Shown here: positions 1-35,894 of the stretch, piece after piece
Numbering within the stretch: the first letter of the stretch is position 1
How the letters are laid out: each line of letters opens with the position of its first letter
Virus record (IMG/VR): IMGVR_UViG_3300031553_000017
Location: 1-35,894 of that record
Reading direction: 5' to 3' (one strand)
DNA from: a virus
Length of the DNA stretch: 35,894 nt
Translations under genes and position numbers: made by a program
The notes under the pieces: generated by a model
What the model was told of the DNA's origin: nothing
Seen by the model: only the letters and a program-made list of their open reading frames with translations
The model's database searches: none

Positions 1-529
1 CATGTCCATCTGTCCTAGTGGCTAGGACAGTTTCCCCATCATCTGTCCTAGTAGGTAGGACAGATTCCCCATCTGTCCTAGTAGGTAGGACAGTTTCCCC
101 ATCGTCTGTCCTAGTGGCTAGGACAGTTTCCCCATCTGTCCTAGTAGGTAGGACAGTTTCCCCATCTGTCCTAGTGGCTAGGACAGTTTCCCCATCATCT
201 GTCCTAGTAGGTAGGACAGATTGCTCGTGCAGCATCCCGCGCCACCCGATCGGGATCGTGTACCTGGTCCGCGCTCGGTTTCGCCGGTCGCACTTCACGT
301 ACCCACCTGCCTCCAGCACGCGGATCGCCTCGACCACTGTCTGAGAGGCTGTGCCAGTCTCATACATGAGCGTTCTCACAGATGGATCGGCTACGCCGTC
401 AACGTCTGCATGTCGTGCTATCATCGTCAGTACGCCCCATGCGGAGAGCCCCATCCTCGCGGCGTGGCCCTCGTCGATCAGACGGTTGCTGAGCCGGAAC
501 CAGCCCCCCGTTCCAGTGTCCTCCGGCAC
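1..529 (-). CDS. winged-helix replication initiator-like protein, partial (runs off left edge)
   Basis: The minus-strand frame is open from a GTG at 527-529 to the window edge, giving 176 residues without a stop. An in-frame TAG lies just upstream, and GGGAG sits about 9 nt before the GTG. Residues about 1-95 read as a winged-helix DNA-binding domain: WFRLSNRLID, then LSAWGVLTMIARH, then a recognition-helix-like TASQTVVEAIRVLEAGGYV. From about residue 107 the protein turns into a repeat of VLxTRTD(D)GE(T/S), seven copies 10 or 11 residues apart. These copies are encoded by seven DNA palindromes. Phage initiators of the lambda O type have the same plan: an N-terminal winged helix, and origin iterons inside the gene. 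A RecT-like protein upstream in the operon and a DnaB-type helicase elsewhere in the window fit a replication role. A general HTH regulator with a disordered tail is the alternative. Confidence 0.75.
   Translation of the reverse strand, partial: MPEDTGTGGWFRLSNRLIDEGHAARMGLSAWGVLTMIARHADVDGVADPSVRTLMYETGTASQTVVEAIRVLEAGGYVKCDRRNRARTRYTIPIGWRGMLHEQSVLPTRTDDGETVLATRTDGETVLPTRTDGETVLATRTDDGETVLPTRTDGESVLPTRTDDGETVLATRTDGH
10..219. repeat. seven palindromic iterons, candidate replication origin
   Basis: Seven copies of a 21-bp palindrome start at 10, 43, 73, 106, 136, 166 and 199. Each has perfect 8-bp arms CTGTCCTA and TAGGACAG around a 5-bp centre that is either GTGGC (copies 1, 4, 6) or GTAGG (copies 2, 3, 5, 7). 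Copies are separated by 9 or 12 bp based on TTTCCCCAT, so the period is 30 or 33 bp. That is close to three helical turns and is always a multiple of three. The array lies inside the winged-helix gene. The arms are identical in all copies, including at synonymous codon positions, which suggests selection on the DNA or very recent duplication. It may continue past the left edge. Confidence 0.9.
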
Positions 530-900: not shown

Positions 901-1242
901 CTATGCTGACTCCTTTGGGGCAGTGGCCACACTATGCGGCCCCTGTGGTCCCGCCTCGTAGTGCCGGTTCAGATCGCGGCGGTGGTACTGGTTCAATTCC
1001 ATCAGCACCATATCGGCACGGTCCACCACTTCCTCAGCGAACGCGAGCACGTCCATGTCTTTGCTGCGCTCCGCCGATGCCAGTCCCTGAGCGATAGCTA
1101 TAGCGATCCTCTCCCGCCGTTGATGCCGCTCATAGAGGTACTGCGGTGCTATCGGCTTGCCCTGCGCCGGTGGCGACTCCGATGGTCGCGCCGTCGTCGG
1201 TGGATCATTATGTCCGTTTTTCTGCCTTGGGTTCTGCTTCAT
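901..1242 (-). CDS. hypothetical protein, 113 aa
   Basis: This starts at ATG 1240-1242, overlapping the TGA of the RecT-like gene as ATGA, with GAGGAGG upstream. The N-terminal 30 residues are rich in Pro, Asn, Lys and Ser and look disordered. The middle is helical and alanine-rich (RIAIAIAQGLASAERSKDMD). It ends at a TAG. No family is recognised. Tight coupling to the annealing protein makes a role in replication or recombination plausible, but this is context only. Confidence 0.7.
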   Translation of the reverse strand: MKQNPRQKNGHNDPPTTARPSESPPAQGKPIAPQYLYERHQRRERIAIAIAQGLASAERSKDMDVLAFAEEVVDRADMVLMELNQYHRRDLNRHYEAGPQGPHSVATAPKESA

Positions 1243-2021
1243 GATTTCGCGACCTCCTCTTGTGTCTCCTGGTCCGCTTGCTTCATGTCGACCATCCTGT
1301 TCAGGTCGTCGAGCATCGTCTGTAGCTGCTCGGTCGTTAGCGCCTTCGGCTCGCTCTCCGGGTACATCTCGGCCACGTAGTCCCGCACGTCATCATCGTC
1401 CCAACCGAGCGCGGTGCGTGCGGCGTGGATGGCCTCGTTAAGCTCTTCCGTCTGATCTGGTTCCTCGGGCGGCTCTAGTTCGCCCGGTGTATTGACGCTA
1501 TCCGGTGGTATCTCCGGCAGGGGTTCGATCTGCGCGCCCGGAATGGTCTCGGTTTCCGTTTCGTCCAGCATGCCGAGCCCAGCAAGCGATAGAGTCGCAC
1601 GTCGCTTGGCCTTAGTCTCGGCCTTCATCATCGCGTTCGCCAGGGCTTCTCCTTGCTGACCTCCAACCATGACCGCACCGATGCTCTCCTCGCTGCGGCC
1701 CTGGCGGTCGGTCACACGAGCGACGACGATGTAGATATTGCCCTCTCGCCGGCGATCAACGATCTGCGTACTCGCATGATGCAGTTTGCGGAGCTGATCC
1801 GTCGCGTCGCGCTTGGCGTACAGGATCACCTTCCCATCGCGCTGCTTCAGGAACATGAGCGGATGCGTGAGCGGATTCAGCCCAACCGACCGGCATGTGC
1901 CTACGTAGTACTCCACCTTCTGCCGATCCGTAAGGCCGGACAAATCACCATCGACGAGCTTCACGAGCGTCGCCGTATCAAGCGACTGGGCTTCTGTCAG
2001 CCCCTTCTCATTCTCCGCCAT
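1239..2021 (-). CDS. RecT-like single-strand annealing protein (putative)
   Basis: This is a 260-aa protein with a strong site (GAGAGGAGGTC) before ATG 2021. Residues about 35-155 carry a pattern typical of RecT/Bet-type phage annealing proteins: a CRSVGLNPLTHPLMFL segment, then LYAKRDATDQLRKLH, and a C-terminal block ETKAKRRATLSLAGLGMLDE. Such proteins coat single-stranded DNA and anneal complementary strands in phage recombination and replication. The C-terminal third (from about 165) is acidic and proline-rich, probably a linker, ending in a small helical part. No exonuclease partner is visible in the window. The family call rests on pattern memory. The gene is certain, the subfamily is not. 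Confidence 0.65.
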   Translation of the reverse strand: MAENEKGLTEAQSLDTATLVKLVDGDLSGLTDRQKVEYYVGTCRSVGLNPLTHPLMFLKQRDGKVILYAKRDATDQLRKLHHASTQIVDRRREGNIYIVVARVTDRQGRSEESIGAVMVGGQQGEALANAMMKAETKAKRRATLSLAGLGMLDETETETIPGAQIEPLPEIPPDSVNTPGELEPPEEPDQTEELNEAIHAARTALGWDDDDVRDYVAEMYPESEPKALTTEQLQTMLDDLNRMVDMKQADQETQEEVAKS

Positions 2022-23128: not shown

Positions 23129-23492
23129 CGTCGATCTCGATTGACCCGCCATGTTCGATCTTGGTCGCCGCATTCAACCCGAGCAGAGTACAGAGTTCTT
23201 TCTGTGTCGCCAGCGCGGTCTTGTAATCCTGCACGCGCATGTTATTACGGAAAAGCAGCTCGTATCGACGTAGCGCCTTACCCAGTTCGTGCTCATGGTG
23301 CACGGCGGCGGCGTCGGTGATCTGACGGCGCGCGAAGCGGATATCCTTCTCGACTGAGGAATCCGACAGATCGTAGTCTTTCGCAACCTTCTCGATGATC
23401 TCATGTGGCCGCGCGCCGTTGATCAGCATGTCCACCACTGCATTGATACGCACGGCACGTGCTGCCGATGTAGAGCCCACCTTCTTAGGCAC
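23046..23492 (-). CDS. terminase small subunit-like protein, 148 aa
   Basis: Residues 10-70 look like an HTH domain (RAVRINAVVDMLINGARPHE, then DYDLSDSSVEKDIRFARRQI). A helical segment for oligomerisation follows, then ALATQKELCTLLGLNAATKI, which is common in terminase small subunits. Immediate overlap with the large subunit supports the call. It binds the packaging start site on phage DNA. Confidence 0.75.
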   Translation of the reverse strand: MPKKVGSTSAARAVRINAVVDMLINGARPHEIIEKVAKDYDLSDSSVEKDIRFARRQITDAAAVHHEHELGKALRRYELLFRNNMRVQDYKTALATQKELCTLLGLNAATKIEHGGSIEIDDARERIESRIAGIATRIGPEGSTQQPE

Positions 23493-24114
23493 GGGCGGCC
23501 TCCGTCAGCATGTCCTCCATCCACGTGCGGTGGAAGTTGAACACGTTGCGATCATTGACGAGAACGGTCTGCTCAAGGCGGGGATTAGCCGTGAAGTTGG
23601 CACTGCCCTCGATGACGAAGTAGTCGGGTGGCGCGTCTAGTAGCATCACTTTGGCATGATTCTTGAATGCGAGATACCGCTGCCCGCGATCCAGCAGACC
23701 GGCGACAAGCGTATTGCGCACGGCTGGCTTGATTGCCCCAAGACGCATTCCGGTGAGCATTGTGACCGCGCGGATACGACCCGTATCGTAGAGCTCGAAT
23801 AGCTCCAGGACATTCCCGCGATTCAGCGTCCACGTCGAACCATAGAAAGCTTCGGCCGGGCGCGCGAGAAGACTGAGGATGACGGGTGTGAATTGCCAGT
23901 AGTCGAAGTGGCCGTTGGATACGATGTGCCAGGCCTCACCGGGCTGAGGTAGCTCGGTCAGAATCTTCTCTAGCTCCTCTTTCTGGGTTGCACGAATTGT
24001 GCGCGCGCGGGCGTCGCGGCGGAGAATGCGCGCATCCTCGATGATGTGCGGTGTCTCCAGGGCCGGGGCACCGGTCATCCACGATAGGTCGTCAACGCGA
24101 CCGGTATCGGTCAT
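23485..24114 (-). CDS. phospholipase D-like nuclease (single HKD motif), 209 aa
   Basis: The motif H153-x-K155-x4-D160 (KNHAKVMLLD) is followed by EGSANFTANPR at 169-179, the GSxN block of the PLD superfamily. One copy per chain suggests a dimer, as in bacterial Nuc-type nucleases. The rest is alpha/beta with no signal peptide or membrane segment, so a cytoplasmic role on DNA or RNA is likely. It sits just before the terminase genes and overlaps the small subunit by 8 nt, consistent with a role in packaging or end processing. That role is inference. Confidence 0.75.
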   Translation of the reverse strand: MTDTGRVDDLSWMTGAPALETPHIIEDARILRRDARARTIRATQKEELEKILTELPQPGEAWHIVSNGHFDYWQFTPVILSLLARPAEAFYGSTWTLNRGNVLELFELYDTGRIRAVTMLTGMRLGAIKPAVRNTLVAGLLDRGQRYLAFKNHAKVMLLDAPPDYFVIEGSANFTANPRLEQTVLVNDRNVFNFHRTWMEDMLTEAARA

Positions 24115-28590: not shown

Positions 28591-29097
28591 TTATTTTTCG
28601 GCGGGCGCCGGCAGTGTGGTCGCACGATGGTCCACCCTCCACCATCGGATGTGAGGTGGCGAATCCGGCGTCCGATCGGGCCTCCAAATGACGACTGCGC
28701 TGGGAAATGGAGCACCTGTTTGCCACTGGCTGAAGCGCAGTCGCCGAGGAATGAATCGTATCTCGCTAGCATTGAGCACCCAGGTGCACCACCAGTCCGT
28801 CTCAGTACGCGCGGGAATGAGGCCGACTATCAGTGCACCCCTGGCGGCCTCTTGGCTGGCCTTGCGCACCCAGAGATAGATGCGTCGGCCGTACGGGGGA
28901 TTCATCCAGCAGCGCCGCGGGGCCCACTGCTGCGCGAGTGCATCGTCCTCGCGCGTCCAGAAGTGCGGCAACTTGGCATTATTATCCGACGCGCACACGT
29001 CGATTTCAAGCGCGAACTCGGCCTGTACCGCGTGGAAGAGGGCTGCGGGCGTCTCCCATTCCTCTGTAGTACTCGTGCGTAGGGCATCATGCATCAT
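28591..29097 (-). CDS. Dam-type phage DNA N-6-adenine methyltransferase, 168 aa
   Basis: The start is ATG 29097 in ATGA overlap (a second ATG follows at once). EEWETPAALFHAVQAEF begins the family pattern. DVCASDNNAKLPHFW is the AdoMet-binding part, NPPYG (66-70) the catalytic motif, and LIPARTETDWW, then RFIPRRLRF and APFPSAVVIW, the rest of the Dam-like phage family. It methylates adenine in DNA, likely to evade restriction. No nuclease partner is seen, so it is an orphan. Promoter-free; read from upstream genes. Confidence 0.92.
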   Translation of the reverse strand: MMHDALRTSTTEEWETPAALFHAVQAEFALEIDVCASDNNAKLPHFWTREDDALAQQWAPRRCWMNPPYGRRIYLWVRKASQEAARGALIVGLIPARTETDWWCTWVLNASEIRFIPRRLRFSQWQTGAPFPSAVVIWRPDRTPDSPPHIRWWRVDHRATTLPAPAEK

Positions 29098-29276
29098 ATG
29101 GCTTTCTCGGCGACCGGCAATCCGCACCATGTCGGCACGCGGTCCATCTCCTCCGGCCAGATACTGGCCTGCCGATTCGACAGCGGCGGGTGACTGTCCG
29201 GGCACGCACAGCGGCCCATCTGTAGCCAGGGGCAGTCCCGACAGCGTGTGATACGCATATTGAGCAGCCTATCCAT
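29094..29276 (-). CDS. small cysteine-rich protein, 60 aa
   Basis: The frame from ATG 29276 overlaps the DUF5131 stop by 8 nt. An inner ATG at 29258 (MRITRCRDCPWL) is an alternative, and neither has a strong site. C12-x2-C15 and C23-x-C25 with a later C51 suggest a small metal-binding protein. No family is recognised. Confidence 0.55.
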   Translation of the reverse strand: MDRLLNMRITRCRDCPWLQMGRCACPDSHPPLSNRQASIWPEEMDRVPTWCGLPVAEKAI

Positions 29277-30135
29277 CGGCAGTAGGCCAGAGCAACGGCT
29301 GCACGACGCTCACGCGTTCCGGCTTCTCGCGCACCCGCAGATCAGCGGGGAACTGCTCGATGCGACGCTCTACGCGCCCGTCGCGGTCGATCTGCTTGAC
29401 GAACACTGGCACGCCAGACGCCTGGCAGTCGGCGACGATAGCCCGGATATGGGCCAGATCGCAGGGCCGGCCGGAGCGACCGCCCTCTGCGCTCTCGGAC
29501 CCGACGATCACCCAGTCGACGTCCGGCTGTGAACCAGACTCGTCCAGCAGGATGTGCGGGTAGCGGTTGATAGGTCCCAGCAGCGGCTCCAGGCTCACGT
29601 ATCGAACAGCAGCCGATTCGGGCAGCGCGAGTAGCTGCTTCAGCCGCCGCTCAAGCCAGTACTGGTTCTCCGCTGATACGCCCCACCAGATGTTCTCGGG
29701 CAGGATCGAGCTGCGGTATCGGCTGGTGACGTAGCCTCGCATACGCGCGGCGCGCTTGGTAAGGAGCTGGAAGGTGTGCTGCGGGTTGTGCTCCAGGAGA
29801 GTAAACACCCGGTTCAGCATGGCATCCGAAATCGCCGGCAGGAAGAGGTCGCCCATCTCCTGGACGAATATCTCCGCAGGTTCCTTCCGCCGAGCGATCT
29901 CGACAAGCTCACGCTCGTTCAGGATCGGCTCCACGTGCTCCAGGTGCTCACGCTCGAATGGCACGCCGAGGGCGCGTGGGAATCGGCCGGAGAGCGACAG
30001 GCGCTCCGAATAGCAGTGATCGCAGCCCGGCGAGCACTTGACGCAGAACCAGTCCCCGACGCGGCCCGTGCGGCGGTCGCGCCACTGGATGACGTTGCTC
30101 GTCATCTCCGTCCACTCGATAGGGGTATTGTTCAT
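29269..30135 (-). CDS. DUF5131 (phage Gp37/Gp68) family protein, 288 aa
   Basis: The start is ATG 30135 (MNNTPIEWTEMTSNVIQWRD), in ATGA overlap and after GGAGGAGATTCC. C34-x3-C38-x2-C41 (KCSPGCDHCYSE) matches the radical-SAM iron-sulfur motif CX3CX2C. HTFQLLTKRAARM, IWWGVSAENQYW, VRYVSLEPLLGPI, then WVIVGSESAEGGRSGRP and VPVFVKQID follow the order of the Gp37/Gp68 family. Members are common in phages and mobile elements. The reaction is not established, and radical-SAM chemistry is inference from the motif. Confidence 0.9.
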   Translation of the reverse strand: MNNTPIEWTEMTSNVIQWRDRRTGRVGDWFCVKCSPGCDHCYSERLSLSGRFPRALGVPFEREHLEHVEPILNERELVEIARRKEPAEIFVQEMGDLFLPAISDAMLNRVFTLLEHNPQHTFQLLTKRAARMRGYVTSRYRSSILPENIWWGVSAENQYWLERRLKQLLALPESAAVRYVSLEPLLGPINRYPHILLDESGSQPDVDWVIVGSESAEGGRSGRPCDLAHIRAIVADCQASGVPVFVKQIDRDGRVERRIEQFPADLRVREKPERVSVVQPLLWPTADG

Positions 30136-30332
30136 CTCTGGAATCTCCTCCAGAGCCATCGCCATGATCGCCGCAGCAAGTGACGATGTCGCGGCCGCAT
30201 ATAGCTTTCCGCGAACTCCTCGTACGGTGGCGGTTTGATGGCGGCCTTCCGCCTTGGGGGAAGCCCATCGCTTGCGCGAGCGAAAGCTATGAGATCGCGC
30301 ATCCGTCGTAGAACCTCTTCGGCAGTATTCAT
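30132..30332 (-). CDS. small basic protein, 66 aa
   Basis: ATGA overlaps join it at both ends (30329-30332 and 30132-30135). It has a helical N-terminus (MNTAEEVLRRMRDLIAFARA) and a very basic Trp/Arg C-terminus (HLLRRSWRWLWRRFQR) that could bind membrane or nucleic acid. No family is recognised. Confidence 0.65.
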   Translation of the reverse strand: MNTAEEVLRRMRDLIAFARASDGLPPRRKAAIKPPPYEEFAESYMRPRHRHLLRRSWRWLWRRFQR

Positions 30333-31766: not shown

Positions 31767-33233
31767 TCAGAATGGCAGATCGGCTTGCTCTGCGTCCATC
31801 TGCCGCTTCGGGTACGCGCGGTACAGCCGATGGTGCCCGACCCACTCGTACGGCACCGACCAGCGGTCCAGGCCCCACTTGTTCTTCATGTTCAGCAGTT
31901 CGACGCGCAGCACCGGATCGCCCCAGTCCATCAGTGCCACACCGTTCTCGGGATTGCGCTCCACCAGCGACTTCGGCTTCTCCACGCCCGCGTGAGGGTT
32001 GCAGATCGCAAACACCGCCGCCGCGTATCGCTCGAGCGAACCGGTGAGTCCGAAGTCAGCCATCTCGGGCCGTAGCGGTTCTCCCGTCTCAAGGACCCGC
32101 TCGCCGTAGCGTCGGTTCAGGTGGTGGAAGAGCAGCACGGCCATGTCGTGGACGATAGCGATATCCACGAGCCCGTCGATGACGCGCCCGAGGTCCTCCT
32201 GATACGACCGGCGGTCGTACTCGATCTTCGACAGATAATCCAGGATTAGCAGGTTCACCCCATGTTCCACCCGTAGCATCTTCGCGTGCGACCGAATCTT
32301 CCCGAGCGTCGCGGGCCGGTCATACACCATGTCGTCTACCGCGATGGGTAGCTCCTTGAGCCAGCGGACTACCTCCTCCATCGTCGCGATGTGCTGGTCG
32401 TCCGGCCGGTCCCGCGGGGACATGAACACACGGGGTGATACCCGCGCCACCTGCGCCATCGCTACGCCCGAGAGTGCCCGGCGTCCACCCTCCAGGTTGA
32501 TATAGCCAACCCGTGTACCCTTGCGGGCCATCGCTGCCGTGTAGGCCATCTGCACACCCATCGACGTCTTGCCCTGACCAGGTCTTGAGCCGATGACGTA
32601 CAGTTCCTGCGTGTAGAGCCCGCCGCCAAGAGCCCGGTCGAGAAGCGTAGGGCCGCCGTCCTGGTGCGGCCACGGGAAGCCTGTCGGGATGGTGCGGTGC
32701 GTGCTCTCGCCCCGCTGGAACGCCGCGAAGTCAGCGGCTACGATATCACCGAGCGAGTCAACGAGAGTGCCGCGCCCGTTGGTCGAGCGAATCTTCGTCA
32801 GTGCGAGTTCGGCCGCCTCCAGCATCTCGTCGGCCTCGCCGCTTGGATCGTAGCAGTCGGCCGCCAGACGACCCGCGATGGCGATCGCCTGCCGGCGATG
32901 CTGCTTCTCCAGCAGTAGGCGAGCATGATGGATCGCAGGCCCAGAGGTTCCCACGCTCGCGGCAATATCTATGAGATAGCCAGCGTCAGCAGCGATGTCT
33001 TGATGACCCTGGCGCTCAAGCTCGTCGCCCAGTGAACTCAGATCGACAGGTGCCCCGCGATCGTACAGCCGGCGGATCGCATGGTAGATGTGCCGGTGGC
33101 GCTCGCGGTAGAACGCCTCCGGCCCGATCAGCGCAGTCACCTGGCTGATGGCCTTCGCGCTCAGCATCATCGCGCCGAGCACCTGCTGTTCGATCTCCGC
33201 GCTGTGCGGCAGGACACGATCAGGGGTTGGCAT
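31767..33233 (-). CDS. replicative DNA helicase, DnaB-like, 488 aa
   Basis: The start is ATG 33233 (MPTPDRVLPHSAEIEQQVLG), after GAGGGAGG. The frame extends to 33371 but without support. Residues 1-150 are the DnaB N-terminal helical domain, and the RecA-like ATPase has Walker A GSRPGQGKTS at 215-224, the catalytic glutamate in YINLEGG (about 248), Walker B LLILDYL (about 328-334), and a late LFHHLNRRYGERVLETGEPL block in place of motif H4. A hexameric 5'-3' helicase that unwinds the phage replication fork. The start overlaps the previous gene by 14 nt. Confidence 0.95.
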   Translation of the reverse strand: MPTPDRVLPHSAEIEQQVLGAMMLSAKAISQVTALIGPEAFYRERHRHIYHAIRRLYDRGAPVDLSSLGDELERQGHQDIAADAGYLIDIAASVGTSGPAIHHARLLLEKQHRRQAIAIAGRLAADCYDPSGEADEMLEAAELALTKIRSTNGRGTLVDSLGDIVAADFAAFQRGESTHRTIPTGFPWPHQDGGPTLLDRALGGGLYTQELYVIGSRPGQGKTSMGVQMAYTAAMARKGTRVGYINLEGGRRALSGVAMAQVARVSPRVFMSPRDRPDDQHIATMEEVVRWLKELPIAVDDMVYDRPATLGKIRSHAKMLRVEHGVNLLILDYLSKIEYDRRSYQEDLGRVIDGLVDIAIVHDMAVLLFHHLNRRYGERVLETGEPLRPEMADFGLTGSLERYAAAVFAICNPHAGVEKPKSLVERNPENGVALMDWGDPVLRVELLNMKNKWGLDRWSVPYEWVGHHRLYRAYPKRQMDAEQADLPF

Positions 33234-33690
33234 GTTGGCCTCCCTCGAGTCGCAGTCGGGGCCGAAGATCTCGATGTCGGCGAGTAGGGCCGGCTGCATC
33301 TGCCGCATGTCCTGCAAGACCTTTCTCCGATGATCTGCAACGCTTGCACTCGCGCCGATAAAGCCAGCCATCGTACATAATCTGCTTCGGGCCCCAATCG
33401 TGTAGCCCCAGCCAGCATAGGAGCTTACCGAGCATGGTCAGCTTCCTTGCATGGTCGGCTTCCTTTCCCCGCTCAGCTTCCGTCAGTGCCGTCTCCAACA
33501 TCCGCACAGCTTCGCGGAGCGGCGTCATCTTGTGGTCCAAGCTCTCGTTGATATCGACAGTACAGCATAGGTCATCATGTATCCCGTCGATCACACCCTG
33601 TATCATGCCCATTGCCTCGCGCATCGTGTGCTCGTACGCGTTGATGCGCTGCGTCAGTGCCGCGAAATGCACGATCTGGTGTAGGCGCAT
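33220..33690 (-). CDS. DUF1660-like small zinc protein with helical N-terminus, 156 aa
   Basis: ATG 33690 gives a helical first half (INAYEHTMREAMGMIQGVID). Residues about 90-120 (LCWLGLHDWGPKQIMYDGWL then RRECKRC) resemble prophage DUF1660: a C-H pair, W-rich core and a C-x2-C pair, likely to bind zinc. The tail (after 122) is Arg/Pro-rich and overlaps the helicase start by 14 nt. Confidence 0.6.
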   Translation of the reverse strand: MRLHQIVHFAALTQRINAYEHTMREAMGMIQGVIDGIHDDLCCTVDINESLDHKMTPLREAVRMLETALTEAERGKEADHARKLTMLGKLLCWLGLHDWGPKQIMYDGWLYRRECKRCRSSEKGLAGHAADAAGPTRRHRDLRPRLRLEGGQHANP

Positions 33691-35200: not shown

Positions 35201-35620
35201 TCAACGCCTCTCGTCGCTGATCGCCGAACCGAACTCGATCAGCAGTGGTTCCAGCCACTCGCTATGCACCACGCGCTTGTCCCACGTCACTTCCCTGTGG
35301 TCTGCATAGATGTGATAGCATAGGTCCTGCACATCGCTGTGATCGTGCCCAGGCCGCGCCAAGAATCTCGTCACCTGGGCAAACACACCATCATGTCCAT
35401 GTGCCTTGTCTATGTGCACAGCCCATGAGAACACGGCGAAGTAGTCGGTGCTGTGCTTGCCTTTCCAGAACTCAATGCGCAGGCCCCGCTCGTTCTCAGG
35501 CTTGGTCGGCCATGTCCGCAAGAGGCGGACGGTGTACTCGACACCGTGGATGACCACACCCTCGATCAGTAGCTCGTCGTTATCCTCAATCACTCGCTCG
35601 GTCTGCTGGCGAATCTTCAT
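35201..35620 (-). CDS. hypothetical protein, 139 aa
   Basis: ATG 35620 follows GGGGAACTGAGG and overlaps the PAPS-reductase-like gene by 35 nt. The text VHGVEYTVRLLRTWPTKPEN, then GLRIEFWKGKHSTDYFAVF and WAVHIDKAHGHDG, suggests a mixed alpha/beta protein rich in His. No family is recognised. Confidence 0.65.
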   Translation of the reverse strand: MKIRQQTERVIEDNDELLIEGVVIHGVEYTVRLLRTWPTKPENERGLRIEFWKGKHSTDYFAVFSWAVHIDKAHGHDGVFAQVTRFLARPGHDHSDVQDLCYHIYADHREVTWDKRVVHSEWLEPLLIEFGSAISDERR

Positions 35621-35894
35621 CCTCAGTTCCCCGTGGTTTGTCCCCAGCCTCGAATCGTCGCCGCAGGCCGGCTAGCGCCGCCGGCCATGTGTCCCGGGAG
35701 GGCGAGCGGAATGTATGGCCCGTCCACCGCTCTAGCTGCTCACCCTCAGCGTACATCTCAGGGTGCTCCTGCCACAGGCGATACCAGTCGGCCAGACGCT
35801 GATGGTAGCACCACATGCAATCCGTACGGCGAGGTGCCTGAAGGCCAGACCTCCCTAGCACCTCCAGTACGTCTCTTAGCCCCATCCCCAACTC
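35586..35894 (-). CDS. PAPS reductase-like phage protein, C-terminal part (runs off right edge)
   Basis: The frame is open to the window edge. A TTG at 35891 and an ATG at 35885 are not convincing starts, so the gene likely begins outside. The sequence ELGMGLRDVLEVLGRSGL, then PRRTDCMWCYHQRLADWYRL, EHPEMYAEGEQLE and GHTFRSPSRDTWPAAL, is the C-terminal end of phage proteins in the phosphoadenosine phosphosulfate (PAPS) reductase superfamily. Cys pair C25/C28 may bind metal. The PP-loop nucleotide domain is not in the window. Some relatives act in sulfur-linked nucleic acid modification, so that role is possible. Confidence 0.7.
   Translation of the reverse strand, partial: ELGMGLRDVLEVLGRSGLQAPRRTDCMWCYHQRLADWYRLWQEHPEMYAEGEQLERWTGHTFRSPSRDTWPAALAGLRRRFEAGDKPRGTEDEDSPADRASD

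Follow-up and report, generated by a model that had tools for sequence, protein, structure and literature searches.

In-frame palindromic iterons as a putative replication origin inside an initiator-like gene of an uncultured phage

At the left edge of this phage record, a run of near-identical palindromes lies within an open reading frame. The question raised by this locus is whether the repeats act as DNA, as iterons of a replication origin placed inside the gene of its own initiator, or whether a peptide repeat, an operator cluster or the assembly explains them better. The window, i.e., the whole stretch analysed here, is a complete public IMG/VR record, linear and 35,894 bp long. It ends inside the array and, since the array stops where the record stops, the copy number is a lower bound (at least seven).

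The iteron array and its gene

Seven copies of a 21-bp palindrome, CTGTCCTA-N5-TAGGACAG, occupy positions 10-219, with start-to-start steps of 33, 30, 33, 30, 30 and 33 bp (sum 189 bp, or 18 x 10.5 bp). The arms are perfect and 8 bp long, all 16 arm positions are invariant across the seven copies, and only 3 of the 30 repeat columns vary by substitution. All 14 half-sites present in the 35,894-bp window fall inside the array, and dinucleotide shuffles predict zero palindrome copies. The array is in frame within the minus-strand ORF 529..<2, where it encodes a protein linker. Both the seven palindromes every 30 or 33 bp in a minus-strand gene and the spacing that keeps the reading frame had been claimed in an earlier note on this DNA, and both are borne out. 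The features are as follows:

10..219, no strand assigned: iteron array, seven 21-bp palindromes, coding for the linker (VL[PA]TRTD(D)GE)n
10..30, no strand assigned: iteron copy 1, centre GTGGC
43..63, no strand assigned: iteron copy 2, centre GTAGG
73..93, no strand assigned: iteron copy 3, centre GTAGG
106..126, no strand assigned: iteron copy 4, centre GTGGC
136..156, no strand assigned: iteron copy 5, centre GTAGG
166..186, no strand assigned: iteron copy 6, centre GTGGC
199..219, no strand assigned: iteron copy 7, centre GTAGG, nearest to the winged-helix codons
2..529, minus strand: initiator-like gene, incomplete, with a GTG start at 529, a 3′ end that runs off the record and 176 visible codons (ORF list and PHROG replication-initiation matches)
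254..511, minus strand: N-terminal winged-helix domain, residues 7-92 (PHROG matches, AlphaFold model, Foldseek)

A Shine-Dalgarno-like GGGAG is found at 537-541, seven nucleotides upstream of the GTG. Just upstream of the gene there is also a perfect 14-bp inverted repeat, GATCAGAGCCGCCG / CGGCGGCTCTGATC, at 590-603 and 785-798 (arms 181 bp apart). A search for the palindrome in IMG/VR returned only three single intergenic matches, no more than the chance expectation for 16 fixed bases in a collection of this size, and a literature search with the half-site sequence gave, among the papers listed, nothing bearing on phage origins.

Residues 7-92 match PHROG replication-initiation families: phrog_270 (E 5.1e-7), the primosomal protein family phrog_11896 (5.4e-6), phrog_1032 (6.8e-6) and the O-like phrog_391 (1.5e-5); phrog_678, also O-like, is among the profile matches of the initiator. 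These profiles point to an N-terminal domain related, though remotely, to phage replication-initiation proteins, and the profile search proposed in the earlier note thus led to such families and not to a non-replication one. In an AlphaFold model built with one relative added, the elements follow one another as in a winged helix: helices at 28-41, 51-58 and 62-74 and wing strands at 79-81 and 89-91; pLDDT is about 60-82 in the core, and the overall fold is poor from the single sequence (pLDDT 53) and reaches 60 with the relative. The nearest viral models by Foldseek are phage helix-turn-helix and replication proteins. The earlier reading of the N-terminus as a winged helix is upheld by the model and the structural comparison. 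No close relatives of the gene that could attest conservation of the array were found in IMG/VR, INPHARED or GTDB genomes; a tblastn search of INPHARED, a collection that includes lambda, with the 176-aa protein gave nothing at E 0.01. As family profiles (phrog_391 and phrog_678) alone reveal the relation, we file the gene, by sequence, under the wider O-like kind and not as a lambda O protein proper.

Two further replication genes, both announced in the earlier note as a RecT-like and a DnaB-like product, are found in the window:

1239..2021, minus strand: gene for a RecT-like annealing protein, on the strand of the initiator and upstream of it (a remote match: phrog_2760 RecT-like, E 0.044; phrog_286, 1.8e-7)
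31767..33371, minus strand: phage DnaB-family replicative helicase gene, the product being the likely partner to be loaded (PF00772, 3.6e-25; PF03796, 1.2e-21; phrog_19, 2.8e-57)

The helicase also matches TIGR03600 (E 2.2e-50, with a bit score under the curated cut-off). It is present in the same genome as the initiator, and the two genes are not adjacent in the linear record. The RecT-like protein has 101 relatives in IMG/VR. The record carries a tailed-phage gene set of HK97 type (terminase, portal, prohead protease and major capsid), and these structural genes, the helicase gene and the RecT-like gene are all on the minus strand. GC skew is negative throughout the window, without a sign change, and is uninformative for origin placement. 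The helicase gave no match as a route to sister phages, the first 8 kb have no DNA similarity to isolate phages, and Rfam and tRNA searches returned none.

The minus strand also holds other genes. A Dam-type DNA N6-adenine methyltransferase (28591-29205; PF05869, 5.7e-30) and a DUF5131 gene (29269-30165; PF07505, E 2.1e-50; phrog_2045, 2.9e-63), from a phage-borne family of unknown function, are found in the right half. A protein with a weak phospholipase-D-like domain, possibly a nuclease, is encoded upstream of the terminase gene (23485-24114; PF13091, 0.0064; phrog_20533, 1.7e-13), and an incomplete gene at the right edge (35586-35894) matches phage phosphoadenosine phosphosulfate reductase (phrog_424, 1e-8).

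The same layout in lambda and other O-like genes

Each lambda iteron is described as an inverted repeat of 18-19 bp, located centrally within O and next to an AT-rich tract, and O binds as a dimer; Stx phages have six iterons (PMC7466680, PMC6022878). The lambda record, used as a positive control, annotates four iterons inside O followed by the AT-rich tract, and our repeat script recovers the four. The locus described here has in common with ori-lambda a helix-domain N-terminus and iterons that form inverted repeats, in frame and midway along the initiator gene. However, lambda has four imperfect iterons 20-24 bp apart, whereas here at least seven perfect-armed 21-bp units are spaced by 30 or 33 bp, and the sequences are unrelated. 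Lambda loads the host DnaB via P, while this phage carries its own DnaB-family helicase; and the side on which lambda has its AT-rich tract falls here beyond the record end.

Identical-palindrome arrays were searched for in 824 kb of loci picked for RecT relatives, plus the initiator-like loci of those records. Besides the window's own array, the scan returned two, one being a low-complexity repeat and the other lying in an O-like gene (L089), which has five repeats around GTAACCCACGGTTAC directly after the helix domain, followed by 40 bp of up to 88% AT. In a second set of loci, two genes that are O-like by profile carry palindromes immediately behind the helix domain: L196 has three copies of GGACAAAAATGTCC and then 85% AT, and L202 has four of GTGCAGAATTGCAC and then 75% AT. 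An AT-rich stretch after the iterons is present in lambda, L089, L196, L202, L212 and L092; behind the repeats of L203 such an element was not found. A further uncultured O-like gene, from a Herpetosiphon genome (L125, 1483-2940), has six in-frame GATGGTGACATT repeats at steps of 33, 33, 21, 32 and 21 bp, followed by an inverted AAAATGTCACC, and is a second case of near three-turn spacing. These four uncultured genes (L089, L196, L202 and L125) resemble the present one in that in-frame repeats come after a winged helix, the repeats of L089, L196 and L202 being palindromic, and L125 also uses steps of 32-33 bp, mixed with 21 bp. They differ from it in repeat sequence, in their fewer copies and in their complete C-terminal parts.

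When mismatches are allowed, three or more chained repeats are found in 13 of 44 O-like ORFs and in 17 of 400 random ORFs; the 44 include five seeds chosen with knowledge of their arrays (8/39 without them), and some of the 44 are probably ordinary regulators. The cleanest test is given by nine initiator genes of isolate phages, two pairs of which are close relatives, fetched solely by resemblance of their helix domain to that of L202. Under the strict setting, three or four chained repeats are found at nt 264-363 in six of the nine, while in the remaining three genes the same position is taken by two copies or by looser repeats; none of 16 neighbouring genes has such repeats. In Lactobacillus phages c5 and PMBT4, Fusobacterium phages FNU4 and Funu2, Cellulophaga phi39:1, Flavonifractor phage Cormatin and Staphylococcus phage SpT99F3, HTH/O-like initiators have the helix domain and then in-frame iterons around nt 264-363, in several cases followed by an AT-rich stretch that is rich in Asn, Ile and Thr codons. 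The next gene after the initiator encodes a DnaB helicase or a helicase loader in most of these isolate phages. In two of them, the initiator is preceded by a gene for a recombinase or a single-strand annealing protein, which resembles the position of the RecT-like gene here. Unlike the present phage, this group has 2-4 short-armed iterons about 21-24 bp apart, mostly in AT-rich genomes.

The earlier note had placed the locus on the plan known from lambdoid phages. As a layout, i.e., a winged helix and then in-frame inverted-repeat iterons within the initiator gene, this is supported, since lambda shows the plan and so, independently, do several unrelated O-like genes; as a statement of kinship it does not hold in the same measure, the sequence similarity to lambda O being remote.

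Repeat arrays near the RecT genes of L007, L027, L033, L042, L055, L056 and L075 were considered and rejected as iterons, being pentapeptide or low-complexity repeats. The long in-frame protein repeats of L007 (7687-8694, AVxxAV...), L042 (1047-2126, pentapeptide) and L027 (5797-6954, AASATG) are unrelated to origins.

Spacing, codon choice and alternative explanations

Most relatives space their iterons by 21-24 bp, about two helical turns, whereas here the steps average 31.5 bp, which corresponds exactly to three turns of 10.5 bp. The earlier note had stated that the palindromes share one helical face. On average this is the case, with a cumulative phase departure of at most 1.5 bp, but a random order of 30- and 33-bp steps does equally well about once in eight, and the order is suggestive only. 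It is conceivable that we are looking at a separate class of intragenic origin: at least seven perfect palindromes at three helical turns, with frame and phase jointly optimised by alternating 30 and 33 bp, would support a longer and more regular initiator filament than lambda-type two-turn origins do; we consider this unlikely. The perfect 8-bp arms and the seven or more near-identical copies may be described as the regular end of the arrays seen, somewhat unusual among them.

A second alternative makes the array an operator cluster: the winged-helix protein would regulate transcription, binding the palindromes within the gene that encodes it, and would take no part in starting replication. 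Palindromes suit dimeric repressors; the best Pfam match of the protein is MarR_2, which, like HTH_36, is below the gathering score; and the solved structures nearest to it by Foldseek are MarR, ArsR and CodY winged-helix regulators, none at E <0.001 (NCBIfam gave regulator-like noise alone). The PHROG matches, however, are overwhelmingly to replication-initiation families, the seven sites all lie within the coding region, no further site being present at a promoter or in the rest of the window, and the layout recurs in annotated phage replication initiators beside helicase or loader genes. We regard an operator cluster as very unlikely.

Could the repeat instead belong to the protein? Low-complexity linkers are common in phage proteins, and a flexible VLxTRTDGE linker expanded by slippage would leave near-identical copies, as recent duplicates do, with the palindrome as an accident of codons. 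Yet the palindrome is built from codons that are rare in this phage (reference: 24 genes of the window): ACT and ACA make up 10% and 17% of Thr codons, CTA 10% of Leu, AGG 5% of Arg and CCT 11% of its synonyms. When codons for the same repeated peptide are drawn at random from phage usage, perfect arms of at least 8 bp arise in 0.2-0.3% of trials. Because the needed codons are rare and random choice so seldom yields such arms, the palindrome was probably selected as DNA and is not a by-product of the peptide. In addition, other O-like genes carry wholly different repeat DNA, again inverted-repeat and at the same position, which a protein constraint would not predict. An origin of the array as a mere peptide repeat has, in our judgement, a very small probability. 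The earlier note had relied on another sign, that the arms never vary even at silent positions. The statement is true but weak as evidence: three varying columns would all miss the arms by chance in about 9% of cases (364/4060), and the invariance could also be due to nothing more than recent tandem duplication. Codon choice is the stronger argument for a constraint on the DNA.

A repeat-driven misassembly at the contig end, with a true array of another size or arrangement, is hardly credible: the record does end inside the array, as short-read assemblies frequently do at repeats, but centre types and spacings follow no periodic order, so this is not a looped unit, the frame is open through all seven copies, and such an error would alter the copy number only and not the nature of the feature.

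A putative origin and its proposed working

The reading that we prefer is that the iterons are part of the phage replication origin, placed inside the initiator gene and bound by its own product in a lambda-like manner; by analogy, we hold this to be very probable. As in O-like initiators with an intragenic iteron origin, there is a (remotely) initiation-related winged helix, dyad iterons follow in frame right after the DNA-binding domain, and the genome has a helicase gene; to these observations the codon bias and the recurrence of the layout elsewhere are added. Most likely, this is an ordinary phage origin of a known kind that had not been recorded before, and its array is unusually regular.

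All that follows, from binding and dimerisation to melting, helicase recruitment and origin activity, is proposed by analogy with lambda. Each 21-bp palindrome would be bound by the N-terminal winged helix of the encoded protein, most likely in dimeric form, so that each 8-bp arm takes one subunit. At least seven dimers, about three helical turns apart, may then assemble into a nucleoprotein complex, and this would bend the DNA and open an AT-rich segment that is expected directly downstream, past the left edge of the record. The C-terminal domain, which would lie beyond the record, may then bring in the replicative helicase, probably the DnaB-type enzyme encoded at the record's other end. Since the repeats double as the code of a flexible linker, the DNA must keep both frame (through 3-bp steps) and helical phase, and alternating steps of 30 and 33 bp satisfy both.

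The putative origin of an uncultured phage has been placed in this way from sequence alone, at a locus that offers a clear case of DNA serving at once as protein code and as predicted binding sites. The genes compared here suggest that phages of very different hosts commonly have in-frame iterons right after a winged helix. As such iterons seem to be common, the origins of many metagenomic phages could be predicted by scanning O-like genes for in-frame arrays of inverted repeats.
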